This document shows positions 4,855 to 62,014 of a stretch of 64,000 bases of DNA, piece after piece. The DNA is from Tieghemostelium lacteum. Taxonomy: Eukaryota > Evosea > Eumycetozoa > Dictyosteliales > Raperosteliaceae. The stretch spans positions 992,001 through 1,056,000 of the forward strand of contig LODT01000004.1 of assembly GCA_001606155.1 (NCBI GenBank). The letters are read 5' to 3'. Position 1 is the first letter of the stretch; each line of letters starts with the position of its first letter. Made by a program: the position numbers and the translations under genes. The notes beneath the pieces were generated by a model that did no database searches, was not told the origin of the DNA, and saw only the letters and a list, made by a program, of their open reading frames with translations.

Positions 4855-7800
4855 ATGAATTATAATTTTAAATTCATTGTATTATTATCTCTTGTATTTA
4901 TAGTATTTTTTGGGTTTGGTAAAAATCTTGATTTGAAAATATCTGTCAAAATTTGACTAATTAACATTTTATAACTATATAAATTTATTCTTATAGGTCA
5001 CTCATATTATTTAGTTGATCAAACATTAGTAGATAATAATGTTTATTCATTAGATAATATAAAATGTGTTTTTAATTATATTTTTATATTATTTCAAGAA
5101 ACTGGGGATGAAAATTTATTAGGTATTGATTTGGGGATGCCATATGAATTGTTAGGCTCAATCTCACAGTCTACTATAAAGTATTTGTACAGGGTAAAAA
5201 TATCACCTCTAATAGATGTTTCCGGTCCAATAAATGTCACCTTAACACCAGGAGGACAAACCTTTTTTCTAGCCAATTATGATTGTAAAGCTCTTCGACC
5301 TACCATCACAATGACACAAACTGAATGGCTCCCTGACCAAGACTCAATGAATTTCACATCTACTCTTCAATTCAATCTCACCAAATATTTTAATTTACAA
5401 ACAGCGCTTTCAATTCAAACACCATATGTTTGTACATTTACTCAACAAGGTTATGCTTATGTAAATCTAAGATGTTCAATTCCAGTTTCAAATGCAATCA
5501 CAGAGCTCAGACTATTCTTTCAAGCACCTACCAATCTTATTAACTTTGATTTAAATCCTATATTTCCAAGTATGTAATTTTTAATTTATTTAAAATAGTT
5601 TTTTACTAACATTAAGTATTTAAATAGATACCAATTATTATGTATCATCTACTCCAAATTTGTACTATTTTAATGCATCAACCATGGGGATAAATTACTA
5701 TTATGTGCTAGATAACCTAACATTAAGTTCAGTAGGTGCCAACAATTATTTTTATTACACCAGATATAGTAATAACTTTATAATGAATGGAAGATCAATC
5801 TATGGAACATCTTTAAAAAGACAAATGCTATTCTATGATAAAACTTCTATACAGCTGACATCCAATATAAAAACACAGTATGCAGTAAACGGTAACGTAA
5901 CTAGTAATACTCAATTTACCAGCACATTAATAGGTATTTATCATTATTAATAATTTTTTGATTTAAGATACTAATTCATAAAAATAGATGTTGACTCTGG
6001 TAAACAGTTTATTATTGTACCTTTAGGTTACGATTCACCAGTTACTACTATTTTAGCATTCATTGGAAACATTAAAAACTATTTCCCTTTTATAAATCAA
6101 TTAGAAGTTGGTCTATACAAAAAGGAACAAAGATTTGAGTGGCCATATGGTTTAAACGATCAAACCATGTCAACCAATACTTATTCGCAATCTATACTGT
6201 TACCTCAATATTCAGTAACTGTTAAATCATTAAAACAAACAATAGCAGTAAATAATGCTCTGCCTGTGGAAACTCAAGGTATTATGCTTCTCAACGTGAC
6301 CTTTACACCATTGAATTTGGAATCTGGTAGAAAACTAATGATAGTCATAGCAGCGTATGTTACAAACAGTAATTCTGGTTTAAATGAAATTAAATTCCTT
6401 GGTGCTGATGGATCTGTTCATTTTTCATTGAACACAAGAGACATAAGTAGTGGTGGGCCTATGAGTGGTGATCTTTCAAAGGTTGTAGATTACACCTATT
6501 TTGATTCTCCTCTCTACCAAGTTCAAACATACACTGTATCAGGTCTAGTTTCTACTAATATATTTACCTATACTACATCCATTATCCAACAATATCCCAC
6601 ATTTGATTTAGGTAGAGGTAAGTAATTTATATATTTGTAAAGATCCACAACATTTGAAAACTAATATTATTTATAGTTATAATTCAAGATCAGATAAGAT
6701 TGACTCATGTTGAGTTTGCATTAAATAATATTGATCTATCATTGGTTGGATGTGAAAACACTATTTTCTTTAATTTTTCAATGATCTCTAAAGGGTTCCC
6801 TGTTAAAGTTGTATTCGATATGGATATAAACAAAGTATTCAGAGGTAAATGGAATGAAGAATTTGGAATGTTTTCAGTTGACTTCTCAATCCCATCTCGT
6901 CAATTCACTGGTCAAATTCAATACACTATATTTTACTATGGATTCCAATATAACAGTACTTCATTCAGTATCTCGTATGGTCTACCAAAGTCATCTTACG
7001 AGCTACAAGTTACATCCACTGTAGCTGATAGAATGCCACCTATTGTAGTTAGCATCAACCGACCACCAATTGCCAACAATATCATGTCTTGGAATTTAAC
7101 TATTTCAGATCCAATCAATGGATTCAAAAATGGAACTATATATATAATTGGTAGTCTCAACAGATTCAATCCAACTGTAGTTCAATTGTCATCCAATGGT
7201 CAAATGAATGTGTTCATGAAGACATTCAACATTGAGTACCAATATAATTGTTCAGTATACCAAGATTATCAAATTTCCATGATTGAACTATTCGATAACA
7301 ATGAATATAGATCTATATACGATCCATTCTATGTCCGTAGTTCAGTTTCTGATAATATCATCAACCCACTTTCAAGTCTTCCAGGTCAAATGAATTACCT
7401 CTCCAATGCTGATCCCTCATGTCCAGTAAAAACCGATTTAGCACCACCTACAATAATCCAATTAACTGATATTTTCAATGTAGAGACATTCAAAGCCAAT
7501 AGAAACTTCTCAATTAGCTTTACAGTTTCTGATATCGCATCTCCAATATCAGCTACCATTTCACCATATTGTTATCTTCACAGTATTCAACATGAAGTTT
7601 TAAAGACTAAAGCTATATTCACTGCCACTGCAGATCCAAAGGTTGCAAACTACGAATGTTTATATGATTCAACAAATATTCCACTTGGGTTTGGGTATCC
7701 TTTGACTAGTCTGGGTTTATCCATTCATGGTTACACTGATTCAAAGTATAATTTTGGTGGTCAAAGTATTGTAAATCTACAACAAAAATTATATATGTAT

Positions 7801-9174
7801 ACAGTACCACTACTATTCTCTAATCCTGTGAATTCCTATCCATTACTTGACAAGGTTTTGGAAATCACATCAGACTATAAACTCATAGTTCTTGGTAGTT
7901 TCCTTGGATTTAACACAACCTATATAATCCCTAATATAACCATTCCTGGTGTAGGATCTATGAAACCACCTGTAATAGACGTAAATAATGTAATTATTAT
8001 CTTTGATATATCATCCATAAAGAATGTTCCAATATTTTCACTTCAAGTTTTCAAATCAGCTCAATATTCCAATCAAATTACTGTTACAAATCGACCAATT
8101 CCAACATCTACACCACCAGTCGTTATAAAATGTCCAGGTACCCCTGAATGTGGTGGTCTATCCAATGGTAAATGTAATTCCATTGGATTATGTGAATGTA
8201 TTATACCATGGAGTGGTGCAGATTGTCTATCACAGATCATTGTTATTCCTCAACCACCAATAATTAACAATACCAGTCCTGGAACCATAAACGATTTCAA
8301 TACAACACTTCCTGATGGTGAACCTGTACAATTGAGAACACTTATCAGTGTTGTCTCACTTCAAGAGCTGGCTATAGATGGTTCCATTGTAAATGAAATT
8401 CCCTTTATACAATGGGTATATACAAATACAACATCAGTGAATAACACATCTATTCAAGAGTACACTTACACTTCTTCATTTAGCTACAACTCCCAGACTA
8501 CCCAAGTTGAAGTTCAAGTACAATACTACCAAAACCTAACTACCATTTTATTTGCAAACCAGAAATTAGAAATGTTACCTCAGACCTTAAAATACAGAAT
8601 ACAACTATCACCATATGCATTCAAATTGAGAACCAATACTCTCCAATTAGTAATGTCAGCTAGTATTCAGTCATCTTCAGAATCATTAAATACATGTTCC
8701 TATCAAGAGACTGGTGAGACTACTGGTAATACTGACTATTTTAAATTGCAAATTGATACCCACTCACTCTACGGAAGATTCATTAAAAGGGCTATTATAG
8801 ATAACAGAATTCAGTCTGTTTCCAACACTATTCTTAACCAAACATCAGAAAACACAGGTAGTCTATCCCAAAGTCTAATCGGTATACATATACCCAATTA
8901 TCTATCCTCTGTTATTATAGATCCTGATTTCTCTATTCTCTTAGACACCAAAACAACATCATCTATTGAATCTGATCAAGTAATCTGTAATGCCCAATCT
9001 GAAAATTCTACAAAGCTTTCAAAATCCCAACTAGCTGGTATCATTATAGGTGCTGTTGGTTTCTTCATTGTATCAATTATTGTAATTATCTATTTCATAT
9101 ACAAAAGAAAAGAAAATTCGATACTCCTTGCTAATTTTAATAATAAAATTCAAAATTCAAATAATAATTTGTAA
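4855..9174 (+). CDS. ComC-like secreted/membrane protein with EGF module and single membrane helix
   Basis: Five exons (4855-4918, 4997-5569, 5628-5933, 5988-6617, 6677-9174) join in frame to 1356 residues; the four introns are 54-78 bp. Residues 1-21 are a hydrophobic signal peptide. The long middle part is beta-rich, Asn/Ser/Thr-rich with many N-glycosylation sequons. An EGF-like module lies near residues 1009-1041 (CGGLSNGKCNSIGLCEC). It is followed by a ~250-residue beta domain containing KLQIDTHSLYGRFIKRAIID and DPDFSILLD, which matches position by position the C-terminal domain of the three lectin-TIG proteins at 48176-62014 and the ComC-type domain known from Dictyostelium. A membrane helix (about 1309-1333, GIIIGAVGFFIVSIIVIIYF) and a short Asn-rich tail end the protein. 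Type I surface protein; ligand unknown. ComC of D. discoideum is a developmental communication gene, so a cell-contact or signalling role is plausible. Confidence 0.85.
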
Positions 9175-22651: not shown

Positions 22652-24913
22652 TTAATTTGAACAAGTTGGTTGATATTTACATTTTTGGGAGGTGGTTAGA
22701 ACTAGGATACAACGATGAGGGGATTTACATGTTATATCAACACAGGTCATACAATAATCTTGTTTAACACATTTATAGATATGATTTGACTCTTCTATAC
22801 AAACATAACCTAAAGCACATGAATTTTGCAAACATGATCCACCTTGATACACATCAAATTCATTTACACAGATATGAGAATCTGGTAAACATATTTGCCC
22901 TATAACGCAAATGCAATCATTGATAATTGTGTTGTTATTGGTACCCGTGGTTGTTGCAGTAGAAGTGACTGGTGGGGCTGGTGATGGTGTAGCAGTAGTG
23001 CTTGTTGTAGCAGTAGTACTTGTTGTAGCAGTAGTACTTGTTGTAGCAGTAGTACTTGTTGTAGCAGTAGTACTTGTTGTAGCAGTAGTACTTGTTGTAG
23101 CAGTAGTACTTGTTGTTGTAGCTGGTTGGGTGGATGTTGTAGTTATAGTTGGATTAGATGTAAATATTCTAATTGTATCATTAATTAAATTTAAATATGT
23201 AATTGAAATTGTAGCAATCGAGGAATTTCTATTTGTTTTATACAAGATGTTTGAGAGACTTTGTAAAAATTTTGGATCTCTATTTGTATTAAATACTTGT
23301 AGCTCACCATTTGAAATACTAACAATATCAGATGATGTGGTGTTAGATGATGAAAATGATAATTGATCAGATGCATCAATATCCAAAACTTTAAAAGTAA
23401 TGAATTGAACATTACAATTTCCAGATGAATTTGGATTAAAATTAGATTCTAAGAAATGATATTCACCACTAGAGTTATAGGGAATAGATGTATTAATGAT
23501 ATTCAACGATGCTGAGATTATAGTTTCTTCACCAAATAAAATATAATTCGTATGATTACTGTTAAATTGTAAAATTAAATCTTGAAAACCATCATTATTA
23601 AAATCAGTCCAAGATGAAAAAGTAAGTGCCGCGAATAATATTATAAAGCCTCTACAATCACCAAATAATGGAGATGTTTTGATATTCAAATCATAAACAG
23701 CTGGTAATTTCATGGTGGTTCCATATACTCCCAACATAATTCCATTTATATAATCAATACATGATAAATCAGATATACCATCTCCATTAATATCACCAAC
23801 ATACATAGAAAGGCAAAATTCTTGAGGTGAAGAAACATCTCTGACCCATTTAACAACTTCAGATGAGTTACCACTGTTGATATCAAAATGAGATTCCCAA
23901 ATTCCACCTTTTTTACCATAAATCATATAAATTGATTTTGAATCCTTACTAGCTACAGCCATATCTTGTAATCCATCACCATTAAAGTCACCAAAACCAA
24001 TCTGAAATAAAAATTCGTACGAAATAGGCTTGATTTCCATTGTAAAACCAGTTGTACCATTTAATACTGGATTATATATAGTTGGATAAAATTTTAAACC
24101 AAAACTAACAGTAGCATTATCAGTTTCCGAAAGTATTACTAAATCATCAATTCCATCATTATTCAAATCTCCACAACCAAGTTTTATAGATCTTTTCAAT
24201 TGCATTATATGTCCATTTGTTCCATTTGATATTAAGTTATTATCAAATAAACCAGAGTTGGTTTGAAACTTTTTACCATTTTCAAGTCCATAGAGAACAT
24301 AAACATTATCTAGGGTATTAAATATCAAATCTTTTATACCATCTCCATTATGATCGCATAAAACTTGATAGGGACCGAAGTAGGGATAGAGTTTAATTAC
24401 AAATCCACCAATTCCATCAAAAGTTGAAAAATCATTCTTAAATGGTCCTGCATGGCCATAAATTATACTAAATGAACCGTATACCGAACGAAATATAATT
24501 TCATCATATCCATCATCATTTATATCTCCACATAAAAAGTTACTCCCAAGATACAATTTTATATAGTCAATACTGAAACCATTGATTCCGTCGATCATTG
24601 AAACTGTTAAAGGTCTCTTGCCACCATATCTTGAGATATCACCAAAAAATACATAAAATTTATTGGTTTGATTATCTGAAATTATAAAATCCTAATTTTA
24701 AATTTTTTTTAGATTTTATTTAATCACTTTTTAAATTTCAACTTAAAAACTTACTTGTTTACCATCACCATTAAAATCAAAACCTCCAGTTTTATATTCA
24801 GAATAAAGCTCTAAACCATAACTATTAGTATTATTAAGTAAATTCTCTGATGTAGGGAAACCAATATTTATAGATATCTTTAGAATAAAAATTAGTAAGA
24901 TAAATATATACAT
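22652..24913 (-). CDS. FG-GAP repeat (integrin-alpha-like propeller) secreted protein with Thr/Ala repeat and Cys-rich tail
   Basis: Two exons, 24913-24755 and 24691-22652, give 732 residues; the intron is 63 bp. A signal peptide (MYIFILLIFILKISI) is followed by about seven FG-GAP/VCBS units, each with a calcium loop of D-x-N-x-D-G-x-x-D type: DFNGDG, DINDDGYDE, DHNGDGIKD, DLNNDGIDD, DFNGDGLQD, DINGDGISD and DFNNDGFQD. This is the blade pattern of integrin-alpha and tachylectin-like propellers. After about residue 490 comes a Thr/Ser/Ala linker made of seven identical hexapeptides, then a Cys-rich C-terminus (about 16 cysteines) with short C-x-x-G-x-x-C units. No membrane helix follows, so it is probably secreted. 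A calcium-stabilised adhesion or matrix protein is the likely role. Confidence 0.85.
22989..23114. repeat. 18-bp minisatellite, seven units
   Basis: Seven head-to-tail copies of GTAGCAGTAGTACTTGTT (first copy one base different) lie inside the FG-GAP gene and encode, on the minus strand, seven hexapeptides of Thr, Ser and Ala. The near-perfect identity suggests recent slippage. Confidence 0.95.
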
Positions 24914-46453: not shown

Positions 46454-47755
46454 TTAGGAATTCCTAGAATGTGTTTTATTATTATTATTAATAGAATCCA
46501 ATGTGGATTCTATTAAATACTCGTTGTTTTTAATGTCTATTTCTACAGATGATGAACTGTCAATATTAAAACTATTAATAACTTCAAGTTCAATAGGTTT
46601 GCTTTGTGTTTGGGGAGTCGGAGAGGAAATGGTGTGAAATATAGTAAGAGAATTAGATCTAGATAGTGATAATGGATTTTGAATATTTTTAAAAGAAGAT
46701 GTTCTGGAGAGTGTTGTTATTGAGTTACTAGTATTTGAAATTTTATCATTTGTTATTTTAATTGGTAATGGTGATGTACTTTCATTTTCCAGAGTGGTAT
46801 TGGGGTGGAATATTATATTGTATTTCTTAACTATTAGCTTTTCAAGGTACTTAAGTGACACTACTAACCAAAGAGATACAACGAATGGAAATGTAAGAGT
46901 TGTGAATTTGTATCCTAGTAGGAAAATAAAGAAATAGGTGGAGACAATAGTGGCAATGACCATATAAAAACCATCAATTACACGGTCACCCGCACAAGCA
47001 ATTCCTGAAAGTACTGCATTGAAACTTGATAGACCTCCTCGAATGGCAGTCTCAGGCTGTCCTTCACTATATGCTATAGCTACACTAACCATAGTTGCAA
47101 TAATTCCATAGAATGCCGAATTTGGACTCTCCAAATAGATACCCAATACAGTGAGTATTCCAGCTAGAATATGGCCTTGAAATATAACCTGTCCAAATGC
47201 ATGTGCGGGTATTGCAAAGTCACTAAACCCAATCTGATGCCAATCTGTAATAGGTCCAGGTGCCCTATCCGTTGTCACACTTCCAATTTTCAAAAGTGCC
47301 AATAGAATCCAAGTAATGGAAATAAAAGGAAATGTAAAAGGGGGTAGTTTTTTTCTGATAAAAAACTCCATCATGCAAGCGGATAGAATAGATCCAATGA
47401 TGGCACCAACCATGACTAAGCCATTGACTTCAAAATAGAAAATCATGGCTTGTCCTATAAGAGCTGCATTGAAACCGTATAGTCCTTTAACTATATTCTG
47501 ACTATCAAATCTAAATAAATAGGCAGATAGCGTCGCTATAGCTGTACAAAATAGTGATACTGCTGCCATTCTATAAGAATCAAAGCAACAGGCAATCAAA
47601 AACAATAGACCTGTCAATGAATTTTCCATTAGGAATATTTGACCCATTCCTCTAAATACACTGAGAATTGACAATCTTAATCTCTCTATCAACCCAGATA
47701 TAATTATTATTTTCCAAATTCTGGAAATATATCCAAAAGAGTTTTCACTGTACAT
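46454..47755 (-). CDS. Urea transporter family protein
   Basis: Single exon, 433 residues. Two homologous halves of about five membrane helices each. Half one has SVFRGMGQIFLMENSLTGLL, GLYGFNAALIGQAM and PPFTFPFISITWILL; half two has AHAFGQVIFQGHILAGILTV, GLSSFNAVLSGIACAG and TTLTFPFVVSLWLVV. The paired N-A-x-L-x-G and T-F-P-F boxes define the urea transporter (UT) fold. It would conduct urea across the plasma or contractile-vacuole membrane. The last ~115 residues are a Ser/Thr/Asn-rich cytosolic tail. UT proteins are scattered among bacteria, animals and a few protists and fungi, so the origin is of interest. Confidence 0.92.
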   Translation of the reverse strand: MYSENSFGYISRIWKIIIISGLIERLRLSILSVFRGMGQIFLMENSLTGLLFLIACCFDSYRMAAVSLFCTAIATLSAYLFRFDSQNIVKGLYGFNAALIGQAMIFYFEVNGLVMVGAIIGSILSACMMEFFIRKKLPPFTFPFISITWILLALLKIGSVTTDRAPGPITDWHQIGFSDFAIPAHAFGQVIFQGHILAGILTVLGIYLESPNSAFYGIIATMVSVAIAYSEGQPETAIRGGLSSFNAVLSGIACAGDRVIDGFYMVIATIVSTYFFIFLLGYKFTTLTFPFVVSLWLVVSLKYLEKLIVKKYNIIFHPNTTLENESTSPLPIKITNDKISNTSNSITTLSRTSSFKNIQNPLSLSRSNSLTIFHTISSPTPQTQSKPIELEVINSFNIDSSSSVEIDIKNNEYLIESTLDSINNNNKTHSRNS

Positions 47756-48175: not shown

Positions 48176-51100
48176 ATGAAAATTCCATTACAATTAATTA
48201 CGATTATAGTTATATCACTATGTTTAAGTGGTATATTAGGACAAACATTTATTTACAATTCACAGAATGACCATTACTACACATTTAATACATCAACAAC
48301 AACAATAACTAGAACTGAGGCTGTTACAGCATGTTCACAAATCACACATCCAACACACGGTATTGGGTATGTATAGACAACCTAATATTTATTATTTTAA
48401 AAAAAATATTAAAATAACATAATTGTTGAATTTCAAATAAAAACAGGTATCTGGCAACTATAACTACAAATCAGGAATTTAAATTTTTAATTCCAAATGC
48501 ATTTTCTCAACCCACAGATGTGAATAAAAGGAAATTTTGGATTAGTGGTTCGAATATTGCTCAAGATAATCTCTTTGTTTATGACAGTGGTCCTGAGATA
48601 GGAGAGTCAATGTACATGGTCTACCAAGACAGATCTAATTACTACTCGGCATTTCAGTTTGGTGAACCTAATCTACTGAACACCGAACATTACGTCAGCA
48701 CTCACTATGATCCCAGTAAAAATATATACCATATGAACAATTTACCAGATAACGGTGCAGTTACTAATTACCTTTGTGAGTTTTCCGCTAAATTGCCATT
48801 TGTACCTGCATTTTCATCCAGTTTGGGAGGTGCTTATCTAATGGTAACTTCACAGTTCCCAGTAGGTTGGAATTTTGTTAATATGACAGGCCAGTTGATT
48901 AGACCTGGTGGCCAGACTCCTTCAGAGACAAAGAATTTCACCATCACTGTTTTGGCACCTACTTTGGTTTTTGGTTTTGTGCCTCCTGGATATGGTATTT
49001 ATGATGTTGTTTTTACTGATACTCTAAATAGACAACAAGTTACTGTTAAAGGGTACCAGTATAGAGCACCTTGGATATCATTAGTATACCCACCTTCCCA
49101 ATCGACACTTGTAACCATTGCTGGATTCAACTTTGGTAATATCTCTAGTGCTGTTAAAGTCTATGTTGGAAGTTCTGCACAAGAATGTACTAGTCCTACT
49201 ATTGTAGTAAGTGATACTGTGATAACATGTTCTTATACTTTACCAATAATCAACTTCCTTCCTGTTACTGTCAGTGTTGGTGGAGTTGAATACTCATCTT
49301 ATAAAACACCAGTTTATAGAGATACCTCAAATTCCATATACTATGGTACCAATGCTATAAATACCTTTAAATACCAACAAGAGAATGCAATGAACCCAAT
49401 CTATGGATACACACCTAGATTCTCTGTTGTTGAAACTCAAGCTCTATACAGTTGGTATTCTTCAATGCAACCAGTACTCCTACAAAACAATCAATATACA
49501 CAATGGGAAGGTATGGAATATAACGATGCTACATCTGTCTTTGTGTCAATGTATGGTGGGCAGGTTGTACCATACCGTAACACATTCACACAAATTCCTT
49601 GGACATTTACATCGAGATATTATCTCAATTGGTATGATCTATCATTACACGGAGTGGATTACGATGGTATTATATACGCTGGTTTGTTACTGGAATATAA
49701 CTGCTCACTTGACCCAGAAATTAAAATTTCATATGGTTCAATGGGTACTGAGGGAGGACCAATTTCAGTTACTCTATACAACTACCAATCCCCATTAAGT
49801 TCAAGTCAATATCAATTCTTGTATGATGGCTTACCTATTGAATTTGATACATCTGGTCTCTATAATCCTGATAATTGGCCCACTAGTTACTCTGTTAAAG
49901 TCGTTGTACCCCCTGGTGTTGGAGGACCACACTTAATCACAGGTACACACAGTGAAATACCTCTTGCAGGAAGTGTAAGTATAACATTCTCCGCACCTTA
50001 TATTAGTGGAATTCCCAATGCACCTTCAGCAACCGGTCTAATAACTATTTCTGGAGAAAGCTTTGGAAATGATATCACAATGGTATCTATTCTCGTTGAT
50101 AATGCTGAATGTCCTAATAAAGCTATGGTAATCCCACATAAAGCCATATCATGTGAGATGGGACAGGGTGTACCAGGTTCAACTAAATCAGTTCAAGTTG
50201 TAGTAGCTGAACAACCATCTAATCAATATACAGTCACCTATGCATCACCTGCAATTCAACAGATTATACCACCTTATTCTCTACCAAATGGTGGAAATAT
50301 AACTATTGTAGGATCCAATTTTTATGATAATCTTTCATTGGTAATAGTTAAAAAGTATGATTCTGCAATTACTGTTTTAAATTGTCAATTCTTAACTTTA
50401 GACACTACATTAGAATGTTCAATTCCTTATGGAAGAGGTGGTTATGATATTACAGTCGAAGTCACAACCTATCCTAATATCATATCCTCATTGGCCTCTG
50501 CATCCTATTATAATCCTGTTGTTAATGCTATATCACAGAATGGTGTGGTGGTTGACATTGTAGGTCAATACTTTGGATATTTAGTTAATGGACCACATTT
50601 CGTTGGATTCACTTCGATATCCCATACCAACCCTACAACCGATATCATGTCCTATTGTGTAGGTTTGAATGATACTGTTATAAGATGTACACTTCCATTA
50701 ACTAGTACATTTGCGGGTAATGGTACACTTTCTATTCTTATCAGCAGTGGATACAATCTATTGCATCCATTGTCACTCAATCCATATGTAACTGCACTAT
50801 CCAATACCATCTTTGACACAGATACCACACAAACTATAGATATCTCTGGTCTTTTCTTTGATAATTCCAATTCATTATTGGTTATAACAAATGATGGTGT
50901 TGCAGATTTGTCATCTGATAGTACAGTAGTAAACAGTGTGCAATCTATAACCTATAAAATACCTCAAGATACTGGTAAGGATATAGAGCTTCAAGTTAAA
51001 ATTGGTAATACTAGGATATCCAATATCATGACATATTCATATAAACCACCGGTGATCACTTCATTAGCTTCTACACTTCAAAACGAAATCTACCAACTAA

Positions 51101-52803
51101 CAATCACTGGATCACAATTTGGTATGCAAGTAAGTGATGTTCAGGCACTGTATGTAGTAAATTCAAGACAGTTACAGGTGTTATCTGTAAACCAGCATAC
51201 AGCAGTGGTATCTGTAGATCCATCCTTTGAATATGAATCCCACGTTCTATTAAACGTTAGTTCACAAGATGTACTCTCTGTTTCAACTGTACCTTTAAAA
51301 CCACTATTTCAGAGTATTACCAATAAGGCTCCTGTAATAGGTGGTACTGTAACTATAATTGGTTCATACATGTCCATCAATCAAACAAAAATACAACTTC
51401 AGTCACAGAGTGGTTCAATTGTGGATCTTGCTAGTGTAACTAAAAATACATCAACACATTGGGAGACAATAGTCGCAGTGCCACCTGGTACTGGTTCATT
51501 CCAACTACGTATTGTATTGGATAATTCAATAGGTGACTTTTATTCAACCACCTACCAATCACCAATAATAAGAAGATCAACTGAACTATACTTTAATCAA
51601 CCCGGTAATGTAACAATCACTGGTGATAACTTTGCACAAGTCACCCCTGTAGTAACTATTGGAACCATTCCATGTACCAATCCATTTGTACTTTCAACAA
51701 GTATATTGGTATGTCATTTCTCAGCAAATGTAACTTCTGAAAATGGTGAATCACTTGATGTATCAGTAACTGTTGATTCCTTAACTGGAAGTAACCAAGT
51801 ATTCTTCTACACTCTTGATAAAGATTGTGAAAAGAATTGTTCAGGACATGGAGATTGTGATAGAACAACATCAACATGCACATGTTATACTGGTTTTACT
51901 GGTTCTGATTGTTCAATTAAAAACAACACAAAACCTGAACCTCCCAAAACTGATGGAAATGGAAACACAAATCTTCCTGGACAATCTGTTAATTTCAATA
52001 TCTCATTAGCATTCATCAGAGAAAAGAAATTTGATGATTCAATTGTTAAAGTTCTTGATCTAACAACAATGAATATCATTGAACAGAAACTAGTTCCACC
52101 AAACATTTCATTCTTCAAAGGTATATTTAATAATAATAATGTATCAGTTCAGTTTAATGTCACCTATTACCCAACACAAACCACAATTGATTTCGCAGGA
52201 GAACCAATTCAACAACCATCCAATTCAATCAAATATCAAATCAGTATCTTTGATTGGGATTTTGAAGAACAAACCAATCATCTTGAATTGATTTATAAAA
52301 GCTCAACACCATCAGTTTCAGAATTGAATTGTGAAGAAACTAAAACCAATTCAACCAATAATATTGATAATTATCGAGGATACAAAATTCAAGCAGGATC
52401 TGATCTATTTGAAACTAAATTCTCAGATAGAATGATTGTTGATAACAGACTTTTGAAAAGTCGAATTTCACAATTACCTGAATCAGATCCATTATATCAA
52501 CAAATCAGCAATAACCAAGATTCAGAACAAGATGAACTTTCAATCCTGATATCACTCTCAACTCCCTATTTTAGATATTATTGCACATTAGATCCTAATT
52601 TCTCAGTTCTTCTCACAACTGAATCAACCAATGACAATGATTGTGAATCTAAAAACAAATGGAAACTACCAGTCATTATAGTTTTAACAGTAGTTGGTGG
52701 ATTATCAATAATAATTGCAATAATTATATTGATCAAAAAGAAAATAATATTCAAAAGACAAATGAAAATATTCTTGCAGAAAAACATAAAAATTTCAAGA
52801 TAA
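48176..52803 (+). CDS. Lectin-TIG-EGF surface protein, tandem copy 1
   Basis: Two exons, 48176-48366 and 48447-52803, give 1515 residues; the 80-bp intron splits a Gly codon (phase 2) in all three copies. Order: signal peptide (MKIPLQLITIIVISLCLSG); C-type-lectin-like domain at about 25-176 with FWISGSN, FGEPN and final YLCEF; TIG/IPT-like repeats, for example PWISLVYPPSQSTLVTIAGF, ISGIPNAPSATGLITISGES and PLFQSITNKAPVIGGTVTII; an unassigned 130-residue domain between the first and second TIG; EGF module near 1190 (CEKNCSGHGDCDRTTSTCTC); ComC-type domain; membrane helix near 1469-1494; short basic tail. The FGEPN triplet sits where EPN sets mannose-type specificity in animal lectins. Type I surface protein, probably a cell-recognition receptor (inference). 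Confidence 0.88.
51721..52627 (+). repeat. Near-identical 3' block, copy 1 of 3
   Basis: Encodes the last TIG strand, EGF module and ComC-type domain. It is almost the same at the DNA level, including third codon positions, as 56188-57082 and 60929-61824, whereas upstream parts of the genes are far less alike. Suggests gene conversion. Confidence 0.9.
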
Positions 52804-52961
52804 CTTTTTTGTGAGGTTATGTCTGCCCAAAATAAAGATATTTAAATTAAATTTTTTAAAGAGAAATCTTTACCAACGTTTCCAAGATTTTTTCGATTAC
52901 AAATTTTATAGTTGAATTTACTATTTTTTCGATAATTACATTGTTAAAAATATTTTTAAAG

Positions 52962-55900
52962 ATGAGGGGATATCACCTATCTTTATTCGTATTACTACTT
53001 ATTTGTACTATTATTAAAGCAGAGCCATTTTTTTACAACCCTGCAAATGATCATTATTATACATATGTTTTAGGTTCTTCTCCTATTAGTAGAGCTGATG
53101 CAGTTACTGCATGTAGTTCACTTCCACTCTATCAAGGATACAAAGGGTTTGTTTTATAAATAAATGTTTTAAGAATATTAATATTAATATTTTCATTCTT
53201 GTAAATTTAAAAAAAGGTATTTGGTTACAATTAACAGCAAAGATGAATATGAGATATTGAAAAATAATATTTTTAAACTTCCATCTGAAAATTTACGACA
53301 ATTTTGGATCAGTGGAAATAATTTAGATAATACAAATATTTTCAAATATGATACAGGTCCTGAATCAGGTCAGAATTTTTATATAGTAAATCAAGATAGA
53401 ACTCACTATTTTGCTGATTTTCAGTTTGCTCATCCCAATAGTTTGGATACTAATAACTATGTCATTGTTAATTATGATTCATTTTATTCGTATCATATGG
53501 AATCTAGTACTTCAGGTGCATCTGTTATGAATTATGTTTGTGAATTTGGAGGTTTAGAAAAACCTTTTGTGCCATCAGCCGATACCAAAGACGGTACTGT
53601 AACATTTTCTGGAACTAGTGGGTTCCCTGCTGATTGGGTATTTACAAATATGTCCATTACATTTACTAGACCTGGACAGCCTTTAAATACAGGTGTTGAT
53701 TGTCAACAACTCAGTATGGTGTCACCTAATGTCTATCAATGTCAGACACCAAATAGCAACGGGGTCTATGATATTAATTTTGTTGAGGCAACTTCTAGAG
53801 TTGTTGCTGTAAAGGGATGGCACTACAGACCACCTTGGATATCAGTAGTCTACCCATCTGCAATCATTGGAAGTGTAGTTACTATTGCTGGTTATAATTT
53901 TGGATCTGTTGCATCTGATATATCAGTTTATATTGGTACTGGTCAAGACCAATGTATTAATCAAAATCTATTTGTTAATCAACTTGTGATTGTATGTACA
54001 CTTAATGCAGCTCCTACAAAATTCCTACCAGTTAGTGTAGTCTCCAATTCCGTTGGATATACAAGTTATAAACCATCAGTGTATTGGAGTACAAATCAAA
54101 AGTATTATATTGGTATTAATAGTAGATGTACATTTAACTATTATGGATATTCATATCCTAACAATCTCTATGGAAGCTATGGTAACAAGGCAATAACTAC
54201 TACCGCACTCTATGACTGGTACTTAACAATGTTCCCAAATATACCAGTTACAGAAGAATACACACAATGGGAGAATGTATTTCATACAACCGAAGGCTTT
54301 TATTCTTTAGTCGATTCAAGTTCTGTAAATTTATACTATACAGTCGAAAATATAACTTTTCCTACAACTGCAACACGTTTCTATCTATCGTGGGGAGGTC
54401 AAACTATTATAAATAGTGTTCAAGATCAATGGGCAGCAGATAGAGCTGGTTTATTAATTGAGAATCCTGTCTACTCTCCATCACTGGAACCAATAACCTT
54501 GTATGTAGATACAACTGGAGGTGTAATTGAAGCTAGAATTGTCTTTTTTGGACCACCTATCAATTCTCAATTGTATGATTTTAAATTCCAAGGTAACTCA
54601 TTGGCATTTGAAAACTTTCAGTTATATAACCCTGACAATCTCAGTCAAATGGTATATATTACTATACCTCCTGGTATAGGTAATGGTACACTTTCAGCCA
54701 CCATCAATGGTGCTTCCATCCCTTCTGCTACTACTGTTATGTACTATCTTCCATGGATTACCAATGTTACTTTTGCAGTTATAGAAACAGGTCTGATTAC
54801 TGTAACTGGTGCAAACTTTGGTAACCAATTAGGAGCCATTACCGTTCTAGTTGATGGTGCTGCTACTTGTGGTAATCTTCAAATGCTTGAACCACATACC
54901 AAAGTCTCATGTGAAATGGGTTTGGGTAGAGGTATTCGTAATATAACTCTACAAATTGGTGATGTGGTTTCACATTACTATATAACCCATTATATAGATC
55001 CTATTTTAACTGGGATTGCACAATCTTCTGACAAAATCACCATCAATGGAAATGGATTTGGTGTTGTAAGTAACACATTTTATGCACTTACAATTCAACT
55101 TGGTGTAACAACTTTTACATCAATCAACAGCTATTGTGTAGGAGCAAGTGATACATTGATAACTTGTGTTATCCCTGATACTTTCAGTTTCAGAGGTTCT
55201 GGGCGTCTGAGAATCATTGGTGATTTTCCAACTTTAGTTTTCAATGTTAATTTCGGACCTTACATTACTAAGATCAGTGAAACACTATTTGATACCGATA
55301 CAACAATTACTATGACAATCACTGGTATGTTTTTTGATGATTCAACTCCAATTACAGTTTCAATACCAACAATCCCAAGTAACTTGATAGGTAATATCAC
55401 TAGTTATGATTACAATACACTATATTTCCCAGTTCCTCAATACACTGGTAAACTCCATACACTTAGAATAGCAACCAGAGATAATTTCCCTAGTAATGTT
55501 GTCAAGTTTTCTTATGAGCCACCAACTATAACATCAATTACAAACTACTTATATAACAATGTCTATTGGTTAACTATAACTGGTACTCAGTTAGGAACTG
55601 TATCTAGTAATATAAATGTACTTTACAATACCAAAGGTGTAACTTTCAATTCATTCACATCAGCTAATAACTCTGTCATTGTATCAATTCCTGACAGATC
55701 ATATAGTTCTTCAGCAATTGTAGAGTTAGTTGTGAATACTCAAGCAAATTCTCAAAACATAACTTTGAAACCTCTGATTGTATCAATAACCAATAAACCT
55801 CCAGTATTAGGAGGTGACATCACTATACATGGTTATTACTTTTCTGAAAATGCAATAGTGACCTTAATAGCACCTAACAACTCAACAGTTACATTGACTA

Positions 55901-57270
55901 AAAACTATTCAACTGTATTAGATGGCTGGATAGCTATTGCAACTGTTACCCCTGGTACTGGAACTTTTGGAATTAAACTCTCAATTCAAACAGTAGAATC
56001 TGATGTTCTCCAATTTAGTTACCAATCACCAATTATCAGAGAGGCCACTGAACTGTACTTTAACCAACCTGGGAATGTAACAATCACTGGTGATAACTTT
56101 GGGCAAGTAAATCCAACTGTAACAATTGGATATATGCCATGTACCAATCCATTTGTACTATCAACAAATAAATTGGTATGTTACTTCTCAGCAAATGTAA
56201 CTTCTGAAAATGGTGAATCACTTGATGTATCAGTAACTGTTGATTCCTTAACTGGAAGTAACCAAGTATTCTTCTACACTCTTGATAAAGATTGTGAAAA
56301 GAATTGTTCAGGACATGGAGATTGTGATAGAACAACATCAACATGCACATGTTATACTGGTTTTACTGGTTCTGATTGTTCAATTAAAAACAACACAAAA
56401 CCTGAACCTCCCAAAACTGATGGAAATGGAAACACAAATCTTCCAGGACAATCTGTTAATTTCAATATCTCATTAGCATTCATTAGAGAAAAGAAATTTG
56501 ATGATTCAATTGTTAAAGTTCTTGATCTAACAACAATGAATATCATTGAAAAGAAATTAATTCAACCAAATACCTCATTTTTCAAAGGTGTATTTAATAA
56601 TAATAATGTATCAGTTCAGTTTAATGTCACCTATTACCCAACACAAACCACAATTGATTTCGCAGGAGAACCAATTCAACAACCATCCAATTCAATCAAA
56701 TACCAAATCAGTATCTTTGATTGGGATTTTGACGAACAAACCAATCATCTTGAATTGATTTATAAAAGCTCAACACCATCAGTTTCAGAGTTGAATTGTG
56801 AAGAAACTCAAACCAATTCAACCAATAATATTGATAATTATCGAGGATACAAAATTCAAGCAGGATCTGATCTATTTGAAACTAAATTCTCAGATAGAAT
56901 GATTGTTGATAATAGACTTTTGAAAAGTCGAATTTCACAATTACCTGAATCTGACCCACTATACCAACAAATCGGCAACACAGAACAAGATGAACTTTCA
57001 ATCTTGATATCACTCTCAACTCCATATTTCAGACACTTTTGTACATTAGATCCTAATTTCTCAGTTCTTCTCACAACTGAATCCACCAATGACGATGATA
57101 ATGAATGTTCATCCAAAAATAACAAATGGAAATTACCAGTCATTCTAGTTGTGTCAATAGTTGGTGGTCTATCTATAATTGTTGCTGTGATTGTATTGGT
57201 GAAAAAAGAAATAATTCTAAAAAGACAAAAGCAAATACTAATGAAAAGAATAAGCGATAATTTTTCTTAA
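52962..57270 (+). CDS. Lectin-TIG-EGF surface protein, tandem copy 2
   Basis: Two exons, 52962-53146 and 53217-57270, give 1412 residues; intron 70 bp with a GTTTGT donor at the conserved place. The ATG at 52962 (MRGYHLSLFVLLLICTIIKA) gives a good signal peptide; an upstream TTG frame is not used. Same domain order as copy 1: lectin-like domain (FWISGNN, FAHPN instead of FGEPN, YVCEFGG), TIG repeats starting PWISVVYPSAIIGSVVTIAG, EGF, ComC-type domain, membrane helix (KLPVILVVSIVGGLSIIVAV) and a basic tail. It is about 100 residues shorter than copy 1 because a stretch of TIG-like sequence is missing in the middle. Starts 158 bp after copy 1 ends. Confidence 0.88.
56188..57082 (+). repeat. 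Near-identical 3' block, copy 2 of 3
   Basis: Matches 51721-52627 and 60929-61824 with scattered single-base differences and one 9-base length difference in the acidic stretch before the last beta strands. Confidence 0.9.
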
Positions 57271-57433
57271 ATGTCGCAGAAATATTAAATAAAACGAAAA
57301 TCTAATCGATCAAAAAAAATCATGATTTTTTTCACAAAATCAAAATATCTATCTATCTTTCGTGAATAACGTATTTAAAATGATTTTCTCAAGATATTAA
57401 AGTTTATAAAATTTTATAAGTTCATTAAAAAGA

Positions 57434-60400
57434 ATGAAGAAGGTAGAATATGTTGGATTGCTTTTCATATTTGTACTTTTTAATATAACATATGCTCAAA
57501 ATTATTTTTATAATCCAGAGAATGGGCATTATTATTCATATAATAAATTATTATTAGTTACACAAGCACAAGCAGTTAGTTTTTGTTCTACTTTAGGCTT
57601 TAATAATTCAGCAGGGTATATATAATTAATTAAATTAATTTAAAAAAAAAATGGATTATATTAATAGTTTATAAAAAAATTTAGGTATTTGGTGACTATA
57701 ACATCTCAAAGCGAATTTAAGTTCCTTGAGAACAATATATTTAATGTACCATTGGATATTAATTCAAAAGTGTTTTGGATAAGTGGAACTAATGCTGATA
57801 ATTCCAATCTATATTCATATGGTGATGGACCTGAAAAAGGAGAAGTTATGTATATTGTAAATTTAGATCAATCTAGATACTATTCTTTATTTCATTTTGC
57901 AGAACCTTCTAACTTGGATACCAATAGCTTTGTTACTGTGGCCTATAATGATTACACATCGAAATTCTATATGAAAACAGCGGATTCTACTTTGACTGTT
58001 GAATATGTTATTTGTGAATATGGTGGTTTAGAATTACCTTTTATGCCTGCAGGTGCTACTAAAAATGGTATAGTTACTGTAAAGGGGAATAGTGGATTTC
58101 CATTAGACTGGATTTACTCTAATATGCAAATTAAATTTACAGTTCCCGGGCAACCAATTAGCACAGGAATACAATGTACAAACTATGTCCTAACACAAGT
58201 CAATAACATACAATGTACACTGCCACTAGGATCTGGGGTCTATGATCTTTACTATATTGAAACTGCAAGTAATCGTACTATAAATGTAAAAGGGTGGGGT
58301 TATAGACCACCTTGGATATCCATTGTATATCCCCCAAATTCTATAGGTACTGTAACAATTGCTGGTTACAATTTTGGATCTGATCCAACTAACTTGTTGG
58401 TATGGATTGGTGACAACCAACAGGCGTGTAACAACCCAACTCTATTGGTTAATGAAATGGCTATAACATGTATCTTACCTGCACCTGTAGGTAGACTTCT
58501 TCCAGTTACAATATCTGTCAATGGCATTCAATATACATCGTATAAATCATATGTATATTGGAATGAAACAGATCTATTTTATTCAGGTACAAATGCCCCA
58601 GTTTCCTTTTCTTTACAAGGTTATTCATCACTTCCAGGTATTTATGGATTCCAATCAACAAAGTCAATTACCACAAGTGAACTAAAAATATGGTACTCTA
58701 AAATGTATCCTTATTTACTTGAAGGTTCATATCTTCAATGGAACAATATGTTTTATGATTCAACAAACTTTATATTTAAAAGTTTGGATACTAGTTTGCC
58801 CGTCACTCCTTCATATGGAATTCTATCTGGACAACTTGTAGGTTCAAATAGACTCTATCTAGATTGGGCTGCTAATGTCTTATCCAGCGTAGACCCTCAA
58901 TTAAGTACAAGTAAAGCTGGCCTATTGGTTGAATATGGTGGATATAATCCACTCTTATTATCACAATCAATTACAATATACACATCCGGTGCTACAGTAA
59001 GCTTTAGAATGTCTTATTATGGGTCACCTATTTATGCAAGATCTTATGTTTTTACATTTTTGGGGTCTACAATAAGTTACGATAGTTCATCACTATACAA
59101 TACTGATGTAATTATGCCTATGATATCAGTAACCATTCCACCAGGTGTTGGTACTCCAGGTAATGTGGTTGGTACACTCAATGGTGTTCCTATTGATGGA
59201 ACTATTTCTATAACATACTTTGCACCAAATATATTAAGTATCAGTCCAGCACCATCTGATACCGGTCTTATTACTATTATCGGTAATGGTTTTGGAAATG
59301 ACCCCACCTATCTATCAGTATCAGTTGATACTACCTCTCAATGTAGTAATATTAAGTTTTTAGATCAACATTTGGTATTTACATGTGAGATGGGACCAGG
59401 AATACCAGGAAGCACTAGAAGTATTATTGTTACACTTAGTTCGCAAAATTCCCTACCTACAACAGCTACCTATTGGATTCCTTTAGTGTCTTCTATAAGT
59501 AAAGGTCTACCATCTGGAGGACAGATAACAATTAAAGGTTTAAACTTTTATATTGACATTTCAATAGTAACTGTAACTCTAGATAGAACAACTATATTGA
59601 CTTGTACAATGCCCGTTGCATTCACAGAGATACATTGCATACTCAGTCCAGGTAGAGGTAGCCACACTATACAAATACAAGTTGGAACTTCTCAATCAAG
59701 CCTTGAAACCTTGAGTTACAATTCTGCTATGCCAGAAGTTGTAAGCCAACAATCTACAAAAATAATAGTTGAAGGGCTGAATTTTGGATATATATCAGCA
59801 CCACCTCACTTTGTAGGATTAACTATAGAGATAGGACCACCTTATTTAAACATTACCAACCTATGTACTGGTATGAATAACACAATGTTTGAATGTATAT
59901 TAACAGGATCAGAGCTTTTTAGTGGTAATGGACAATTGAAAGTAACTAGTGGATTTGGTCCTAATTATGCAGCGGTCAATTTAAGACCTGTAATTTCAGT
60001 CCTCGGTGGTACATTATATGATACAACTACAACAGATATAATGACAATTAGTGGTATGTTTTTTGATAACTCGTCTGAACCTATTAGAGTAACCAACTCT
60101 GGAGTTCCAAGTAACTATATTGGAAATATAACTGTTAATAGCTATAATACAATATATTACTCAGTTCCTCAATATACTGGTAAAAATCACACAATTAGAG
60201 TTCTTATTGGCCAATCTATGTACTCCAATTCCGTTCAGTATTCCTATCTACCACCTTCCATTGTATCTGTTACTCCAACTCTTTTATCCAATAATACATA
60301 TTCATTTACTGTTATAGCTACACAAATGGGTTCACTTCAAAGCAACTTGTATTTGTCTCTGGGTGGTTATATTATGCCAGTAATATCCTTTACATCAACT

Positions 60401-62014
60401 AACAATACAGTTGTTGGAAATGTTTATACTAGAGTAATCAAATACAACACTTATCTTTCCCTATTTGTGAATGATCAAGAGGCAACTTATCCTACAACTT
60501 TAAAACCTGTAATTGGAACAATCAAAAATAGGCCACCATTGATTGGTGGATTGGTAACAATCATAGGTTACTACTTATCCTATAGTGAATCACCTCAAGT
60601 TATTCTACAATCCCAAAACTTGCAAAATATATCATTAACCTCAAACACCACTTTACTAGCTGATAAATGGGAAATTATTGCATCTTTTACACCTGGTACT
60701 GGTTTATTTGGTATTTTACTCACCCTACCAAATTCAGAAAGTGATATATATCAATTTAGTTACCAATCACCAATTGTCAGAGAGTCTACAGAGCTCTATT
60801 TTAACCAACCTGGTAATGTAACAATCACTGGTGATAACTTTGCACAAGTAAATCCGACTGTCTCTATTGGATCCATTCCATGTACCAACCCTTTTATATT
60901 GTCTATAAATCAATTGGTATGTCACTTCTCAGCAAATGTAACTTCTGAAAATGGTGAATCACTTGATGTATCAGTAACTGTTGATTCCTTAACTGGAAGT
61001 AACCAAGTATTCTTCTACACTCTTGATAAAGATTGTGAAAAGAATTGTTCAGGACATGGAGATTGTGATAGAACAACATCAACATGTACATGTTATACTG
61101 GTTATATTGGTTCTGATTGTTCAATTAAAAACAACACAAAACCTGAACCTCCCAAAACTGATGGAAATGGAAACACAAATCTTCCTGGACAATCTGTTAA
61201 TTTCAATATCTCATTGGCATTCATCAGAGAAAAGAAATTTGATGATTCAATTGTTAAAGTTCTTGATCTAACAACAATGAATATCATTGAAAAGAAATTA
61301 ATTCCACCAAATACCTCATTTTTCAAAGGTGTATTTAATGATAATAATGTATCAGTTTAGTTTAATGTCACCTATTACCCAACACAAACCACAATTGATT
61401 TCGCAGGAGAACCAATTCAACAACCATCCAATTCAATTAAATATCAAATCAGTATCTTTGATTGGGATTTTGAAGAACAAACCAATCATCTTGAATTGAT
61501 TTATAAAAGCTCAACACCATCAGTTTCAGAATTGAATTGTGAAGAAACTAAAACCAATTCAACCAATAATATTGAAAATTATCGAGGATACAAAATTCAA
61601 GCAGGATCTGATCTATTTGAAACTAAATTCTCAGATAGAATGATTGTTGATAACAGACTTTTGAAAAGTCGAATTTCACAATTACCTGAATCTGACCCAC
61701 TATACCAACAAATCGGCAACACAGAACAAGATGAACTTTCAATCTTGATATCACTCTCAACACCCTATTTCAGACACTTTTGCACACTAGATCCTAATTT
61801 CTCAGTTCTTCTCACAACTGAATCCAATGAAAATAACGATTGTGATTCACATTCTAAAAGTAACAAATGGAAATTACCAGTCATTCTAGTTGTATCAATA
61901 ACTGCTGGTTTATCTATTGCTGTAGCATCAATATGGTACTTCAGAAACAAAATAGTATTTAAAAGACAAAGAAACTTTATCTTAGAAAGATTGAGAAACG
62001 GAAGTAGAGAATAA
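57434..62014 (+). CDS. Lectin-TIG-EGF surface protein, tandem copy 3, interrupted by one in-frame stop
   Basis: Two exons, 57434-57615 and 57685 onward; intron 69 bp at the conserved phase-2 Gly. Same order as copies 1 and 2: signal peptide (MKKVEYVGLLFIFVLFNITY), lectin-like domain (VFWISGTN, FAEPS, YVICEYGG), TIG repeats (PWISIVYPPNSIGTVTIAGY and others), EGF (CTCYTGYIGSDC) and start of the ComC-type domain. At 61358-61360 the codon CAG of both sister genes is TAG, ending the protein at 1285 residues. After it the frame continues without further damage to 62014, including the membrane helix (KLPVILVVSITAGLSIAVAS). So this is a very young pseudogene, a secreted version without anchor, a read-through case or a sequence error. 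Apart from this one base the copy looks fully maintained. Confidence 0.85.
60929..61824 (+). repeat. Near-identical 3' block, copy 3 of 3
   Basis: Third copy of the block described at 51721 and 56188. It carries a few private changes, including the TAG codon at 61358-61360. Confidence 0.9.

Follow-up and report, generated by a model that had tools for sequence, protein, structure and literature searches.

Architecture of the three tandem genes

We analysed a window of 64,000 nucleotides from the dictyostelid Tieghemostelium lacteum (assembly GCA_001606155.1, contig LODT01000004.1, positions 992,001 to 1,056,000 of the forward strand). Gene modelling from the sequence placed three tandem genes on the + strand, here named g1, g2 and g3, which fill positions 48176-62014 of this window. 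Their predicted products carry a lectin-like head, a rod of TIG repeats and a stalk with an EGF unit and a ComC domain; the heads have diverged, whereas a block of the stalk is nearly identical among the three. The predicted features of the genes are as follows.

48176-48366 and 48447-52803, + strand: exons of g1, 1515 amino acids (aa); signal peptide, first C-type-lectin-like domain (CTLD1), TIG repeats, probable second such domain (CTLD2), further TIG repeats, EGF, ComC_SSD, membrane helix and short tail
52962-53146 and 53217-57270, + strand: exons of g2, 1412 aa; architecture as in g1
57434-57615 and 57685-62014, + strand: exons of g3, frame broken by a TAG codon; 1285 aa as assembled
48367-48446, + strand: phase-2 intron of g1, 80 bp, GT...AG
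53147-53216, + strand: phase-2 intron of g2, 70 bp, GT...AG, position as in g1
57616-57684, + strand: phase-2 intron of g3, 69 bp, GT...AG, position as in g1
48245-48786, + strand: CTLD1 of g1, split by the intron 48367-48446
53025-53550, + strand: CTLD1 of g2, split by the intron 53147-53216
57500-58024, + strand: CTLD1 of g3, split by the intron 57616-57684
49312-49713, + strand: probable, degenerate CTLD2 of g1, between TIG repeats
54079-54477, + strand: probable, degenerate CTLD2 of g2, between TIG repeats
58553-58948, + strand: probable, degenerate CTLD2 of g3, between TIG repeats
52672-52734, + strand: membrane helix of g1
57139-57201, + strand: membrane helix of g2
61358-61360, + strand: in-frame TAG of g3, within the ComC domain and upstream of the membrane helix
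61874-61936, + strand: membrane helix of g3, downstream of the TAG

The adjacent same-strand arrangement and the identically placed phase-2 intron proposed in a first-pass annotation of this DNA were both borne out by our models, with gaps of 158 and 163 bp between the genes of the array. Within the genome searched (23.33 Mb on 43 contigs, with dictyostelid-type genes), the same intron position and phase fit five paralogues (L035, L036, L038, L040 and L041, with one candidate donor each and two in L036). This intron is thus an old family feature. At that position, the single-exon members L037, L039, L042 and L044 have none.

Pfam searches detected TIG repeats above the cut-off in g1, g2 and g3 (E = 3.1e-27, 1.5e-27 and 2.4e-31), in 6, 7 and 6 stretches, respectively. 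The EGF unit, which contains six cysteines, was matched by EGF_2 (E = 7e-4 to 9e-4) and EGF_TEN (E = 1.2e-5 to 3.7e-5), all under the curated cut-offs. ComC_SSD scored above its curated cut-off of 24 bits in g1 (36.9 bits) and g2 (42.8 bits); for g3, a score of 44.6 bits is reached when the genome search reads through the TAG, and the part past the TAG alone stays under the cut-off at 20.3 bits. The sole match to a Tgr-named model among the three was Ig_TgrO1 in g1, with 19.3 bits against a cut-off of 27.9. Hydropathy peaks exceed the threshold at the N- and C-terminal ends of g1 and g2 and at the C-terminal end only in g3. TIG repeats are combined with a membrane helix in g1 and g2; the in-frame TAG means that the assembled g3 product stops upstream of its helix. 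Of the parts listed in the first-pass annotation, the TIG repeats were thus recovered in full and the EGF unit at sub-threshold scores. The signal peptide, the ComC-type domain and the membrane helix hold for g1 and g2 but not for g3, where they fall below threshold, are interrupted by the TAG and lie beyond it, respectively. Likewise, the annotated range of 1285-1515 codons is correct as assembled, but its lower end is the truncated frame of g3.

For the head, no CTLD or Lectin_C match was found by Pfam in full-length g1-g3, even at E <= 1, and the Lectin_C model had one match in the whole genome. Searched alone against the Protein Data Bank (PDB), the three window heads gave marginal CTLD matches (best E = 0.034), and whole g2 gave nothing at E <= 0.01 by phmmer. 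We therefore turn to the evidence from the family. A profile of 12 heads retrieved the phospholipase A2 receptor as top PDB chain at E = 1.4e-16, a value summed over its eight CTLDs (best single domain 0.0033). The best single-CTLD chain reached 6e-6, others were weaker, and the best 60 of the 108 matching chains are all CTLD proteins by name. Lectin_C matched 7 of the 12 heads at E <= 1 (best 3.9e-6), g1 not being among these. A whole-head structure was predicted for the single-exon paralogue L037, rather than for the intron-split window heads, from an alignment with ten relatives including the exon-2 parts of the window genes (mean predicted local distance difference test score (pLDDT) of 77). 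It is matched best in the PDB by C-type lectins, CEL-I ranking first and CD23 among the next, with a template modelling (TM) score by target of about 0.7 (0.72). For a fragment of g2 exon 2, the predicted structure had a mean pLDDT of 68, with low values across the exon-split CTLD1; its matches were long chains, immunoglobulin-like or otherwise multi-domain, with TM-scores no higher than 0.22, and it is uninformative on CTLD2. The family profile and the predicted paralogue structure thus support a CTLD fold for the head of g1-g3, in line with the first-pass annotation. Of the checks which that annotation proposed, the domain search found TIG by Pfam and the lectin type by the family profile but not by Pfam in g1-g3, and structure prediction was informative for L037 but not for the g2 fragment.

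EPN or QPD plus WND are the calcium-site-2 motifs that bear on sugar binding by C-type lectins. The first tripeptide is EPN in 6 of the 12 heads, and within the array it reads EPN in g1, HPN in g2 and EPS in g3; the second motif is NN or degenerate in most of the 12 heads and WMND in L037. An extra cysteine pair occurs in seven heads and is missing from five (g1, g2, g3, L038 and L044), both cysteines always coming together. In a tree of the 12 heads, g1-g3 group together with a support of 0.97, and therefore no head exchange with other clusters is seen there.

A degenerate second CTLD, overlooked by the first-pass annotation, probably sits between the TIG repeats of g1-g3. Profile-profile comparison with hhalign yielded a probability of 64 and a P of 6.7e-5. 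In a sliding control, segments on CTLD1 matched strongly and the CTLD2 segment reached P = 5e-6, followed by four half-overlapping segments at 2.3e-4 to 4.5e-4 and the rest at 0.003 to 0.96. Because CTLD2 has no match in the PDB (best E = 0.29, a non-lectin) and the evidence is profile-profile comparison alone, we grade it as probable. Taken together, the domain and hydropathy analyses show a predicted architecture of an N-terminal CTLD-type head, a TIG rod and an EGF plus ComC 'supersandwich' stalk, followed in g1 and g2 by one membrane helix and a short tail.

Diverged heads and a near-identical stalk block

Pairwise comparison of g1/g2, g1/g3 and g2/g3 revealed a homogenised block in each gene.

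51604-52503, + strand: homogenised block of g1, comprising the last TIG, EGF and most of ComC_SSD
56071-56970, + strand: homogenised block of g2, counterpart of the g1 block
60812-61711, + strand: homogenised block of g3, counterpart of the g1 block; includes the TAG

Over the heads and TIG repeats (about 1120 alignment columns), the three pairs share 26-55% aa identity, with a synonymous divergence (dS) from 0.77 to saturated, whereas over the block (about 300 codons) they share 89-100% with a dS of 0.04-0.25. Past the block, in the last two alignment windows, dS climbs again to 0.37-0.47 and then to 0.84-2.28 at the helix and tail. The longest run of identical codons is 53-86 in these pairs; in 2000 shuffles of each pair it never exceeded 14-15, by which chance is rejected as the cause of the runs. 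As synonymous sites carry the contrast, amino-acid constraint alone does not explain it, and purifying selection is rejected as the sole cause of the stalk identity. Nor is it due to a recent origin of the whole genes, because the heads are far diverged and so is the non-coding DNA, with 54-57% identity in the 5' flanks, 47-49% in the 3' flanks and 58-62% in the introns. Diverged heads and TIGs next to a near-identical block within one cluster therefore indicate recent ectopic recombination, i.e. gene conversion or unequal crossing-over, the latter being a possible mechanism of exchange for the block.

We compared seven tandem clusters of the genome, including the window's own (C2); they were picked as at hand or as tandem-looking among the ComC matches, and the share of clusters with a block is not an unbiased figure. 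The block layout is present in five of the seven. Besides C2, these are C11 132-147 kb (dS of 0.87-2.71 in the head, thereafter 0-0.10 for the most part, patches reaching 0.33), C24 genes 1 vs 2 (dS of 1.23 and 0.58 in the head, thereafter under 0.3 for the most part, patches reaching 0.44), the C34 pair (head dS 0.60 to saturated; 0.34, 0.21 and 0.09 over EGF and ComC; 0.45 and then saturated at the tail) and C24 349 vs 353 kb (head dS 0.77-2.47, then 0.09-0.22, then 0.57; head type not assigned). Hence, the layout also exists in some other receptor clusters of this genome, including a C34 pair without a detected CTLD. Between clusters, the stalks of C2 and C11 differ by a dS of 1.06 (39% aa identity) and those of C2 and C23 are saturated (35%). 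In these two comparisons the stalks are far apart, and low stalk dS is therefore local.

The C34 genes lie at L055 (C34:281000-288500), where tandem ComC genes have heads that appear leucine-rich-repeat-like by eye; Pfam named no head domain in these genes and detected no CTLD.

Family members and the stop codon of g3

To describe the family beyond the array, we used the 12-head profile on 20 fetched loci (L035-L054). Heads were found in 17 of them and in none of L043, L045 and L054; nine of the 17 had fed the profile, and the other eight (L046-L053) had no part in it. Including g1-g3, the genome contains at least 20 CTLD heads on 11 contigs, where the E-values of the head search refer to a small frame set and some finds are weak exon fragments (L050, L052 and L053, 9e-7 to 4e-5). 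ComC_SSD and TIG each have at least 150 matches in the genome. At L039 (C7:85500-92500), the EGF-like unit of a CTLD-headed TIG gene is followed directly by a hydrophobic stretch, and a ComC domain is not visible.

L040 (C23:977500-983800) and L046 (C20:206500-213000) are recent duplicates on different contigs with 86% identity. Their 1019-aa frames both stop at the same place after TIG, and no EGF, ComC or membrane helix was found in the fetched downstream DNA. The stalk match at L040 belongs to a neighbouring gene; the ComC-stalk gene L041 adjoins L040 on the same strand. Judging from these frames, L040 and L046 are stalk-less and possibly secreted members of the family.

These relatives bear on g3, which has intact paralogues beside it. 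We see an even chance that g3 is a pseudogene, that its TAG is an assembly error or that g3 encodes a soluble secreted form. The frame contains one TAG only and stays open past it up to 62014, and two stalk-less relatives exist; these observations are compatible with each of the three options.

Other genes in the window include a further ComC-stalk gene and two of other kinds.

6700-9174, + strand: another ComC-stalk protein with DUF7035, DUF7034 and DUF7949; its ComC_SSD match C2:1000335-1000940 corresponds to 8335-8940 of the window
22652-24598, - strand: FG-GAP repeat protein, its propeller repeats being of the kind found in integrin alpha chains
46454-47755, - strand: urea transporter adjoining g1, divergently oriented

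Known systems and possible roles

The first-pass annotation regarded the cluster as a potentially separate recognition system of this lineage. This view was not supported, given the spread of the heads over the genome and a published dictyostelid group with the same domain combination. This group, OG5_153020 (IPT/TIG, EGF-like, C-type lectin), has 9 members in D. discoideum, 43 in A. subglobosum, 35 in P. pallidum and 50 in D. fasciculatum; the sizes rest on homology to D. discoideum genes, and members need not all carry every domain (PMC4334915). D. discoideum DDB_G0269040 bears the same label (PMC7190356). OG5_153020 has the same three domain kinds as g1-g3 and is expanded outside D. discoideum, whereas the section of PMC4334915 that lists it gives label and counts only, with no ComC stalk, second CTLD or homogenised block, and our comparison is by description. 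The combination of CTLD, TIG and EGF is thus already published for dictyostelids, and by their predicted domains g1-g3 are members of that kind, here with a ComC stalk. D. lacteum is reported to have 76 IPT/TIG proteins and 7 that combine TIG with EGF (PMC4931340).

The Tgr (tiger) proteins TgrB1 and TgrC1 of D. discoideum resemble g1-g3 in their TIG repeats, surface location, clustering and membership of a fast-changing family (PMC12324515), whereas g1-g3 have a CTLD head and an EGF plus ComC stalk. Moreover, tgrB1 and tgrC1 form a divergent pair with one promoter (PMC12324515), unlike the same-strand array. ComC of D. discoideum contains EGF domains, a signal peptide and a membrane helix, and its mutant aggregates aberrantly (PMC4931340 Table 3, PMC2873529); it shares the ComC_SSD supersandwich domain with g1-g3, in which a CTLD head and a TIG rod are present in addition. 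The gene comC is listed as restricted to group 4 (PMC4931340). The clustered protocadherins of fugu are similar in layout, being tandem genes with diverged N-terminal domains and a membrane-proximal ectodomain homogenised per subcluster, but their domains are unrelated and GC content at third codon positions (GC3) is raised in the converted region (PMC1852091), unlike in the g1-g3 block. Our literature searches on architecture and concerted evolution, which covered open-licence papers mostly by title and abstract, turned up no account of homogenisation in a ComC stalk.

We consider it likely that g1-g3 are tandem cell-surface receptors or adhesins of the published dictyostelid family, whose heads diverge and whose stalk is homogenised by ectopic recombination. 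The proteins would be exported to the cell surface, where the head may bind a glycan or protein ligand and paralogue heads may differ in specificity, as the three calcium-site-2 tripeptides of the array suggest. The constant stalk could relay binding to a common membrane or signalling function; with such a shared output, the array members would act as interchangeable heads on it.

Several observations weigh against this reading. The block shows no rise in GC3 (0.17-0.18 vs 0.20-0.23 in the heads), and GC-biased conversion is therefore not seen. The helix and tail diverge as well in C2 and C34, which means that the sequence near the membrane is not all kept alike. Two of the seven clusters lack a strong block: C11 380/384 kb has only one alignment window at a dS of 0.62, and the C23 1572-1577 kb pair, for which no ComC match is listed, has its lowest window at 0.52. 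A block is also missing from C24 genes 2 vs 3. Finally, L040/L046, the only recent pair with unsaturated dS throughout, has an omega of 0.57 (95% bootstrap 0.43-0.75) over 1019 codons, and the 3 of its 17 windows of 60 codons at omega >= 1 (1.07, 2.93 and 1.06) are non-significant (P = 0.61, 0.12 and 0.62).

Positive selection on the heads thus finds no support in any of the tests run, both those within the tandem clusters and the omega and window tests of L040/L046. In the C23 1572-1577 kb pair, omega is about 1 in two windows, at a dS of 0.82 and 0.52.

Passive homogenisation, in which a constrained ComC stalk stays recombinable while the heads have drifted below the threshold, would convey no message on a shared output. 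Recombination needs stretches of identity, which counts for this explanation, as do the differing block edges. In C11 the edge follows CTLD2, in C24 genes 1 vs 2 it comes about 200 aa into the long frame, and in C2 it lies at the last TIG. On the other side, the head lies within the diverged part in all five clusters with a block, a small non-random sample that does not separate passive from functional causes. We regard passive homogenisation as a substantial possibility, falling somewhat short of an even chance. It concerns the origin of the block and not the function of the proteins, and the likelihoods given here for the alternatives are not mutually exclusive.

As to function, the putative receptors most likely act on contact, recognising or adhering to other cells or bacterial prey. 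Of the possible roles, prey or surface adhesion and cell-cell recognition or adhesion in development appear equally plausible, each a little below even, and any other role about half as probable as either. The array might, with a similar, not quite even likelihood, encode lectin-type phagocytic or sensing receptors for prey or pathogens, whose heads would bind bacterial glycans. Mammalian C-type lectins serve as phagocytic receptors (PMC5758549), substrata, mates and prey have been suggested as binding targets for the adhesion families of unicellular amoebozoa (PMC4931340), and gene conversion is also seen in TLR1/TLR6, a tandem pair of innate receptors (PMC2077338); retention of EPN in only half of the 12 heads argues against it.

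Kin recognition is possible, and prey recognition fits equally well. More specifically, the cluster could be a polymorphic self/non-self locus with a lectin head that replaces TgrB1/TgrC1 of D. discoideum, which we deem rather unlikely. Consistent with it are the clustering of divergent heads on a common stalk, the listing of tgrB1 as confined to group 4 and of tgrC1 as confined to D. discoideum (PMC4931340 Table 3), the larger size of OG5_153020 in the other three dictyostelids listed (43, 35 and 50 vs 9; PMC4334915), kin discrimination in P. violaceum (PMC3041686) and N-glycans termed species-specific in two Dictyostelium species (PMC11795075). Against it stand the spread of such heads over 11 contigs rather than one locus, the absence of positive selection in the tests run and the lack of a divergent pair like tgrB1/tgrC1 in the one-stranded array. 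By analogy with protocadherins, the stalk might even be a cluster-specific 'address', held uniform within each tandem cluster through concerted evolution, which would let receptors whose heads differ join the same complex on one cell, but this we judge highly improbable. If true, it would allow combinatorial surface identities as in clustered protocadherins, built with more than one head kind, some heads being released in addition as soluble forms that lack the stalk, and would mark an independent amoebozoan route to cell-surface individuality.

Returning to the preferred reading of a receptor family with diverging heads on a recombining stalk, the head/stalk contrast provides a simple genome-scale statistic to find receptor families of this kind. 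Targeted knock-ins work in several dictyostelids, including T. lacteum (PMC13046832). With its divergent lectin heads and locally homogenised stalks, this large family may serve as a concrete, testable candidate set for kin or prey recognition outside group 4.

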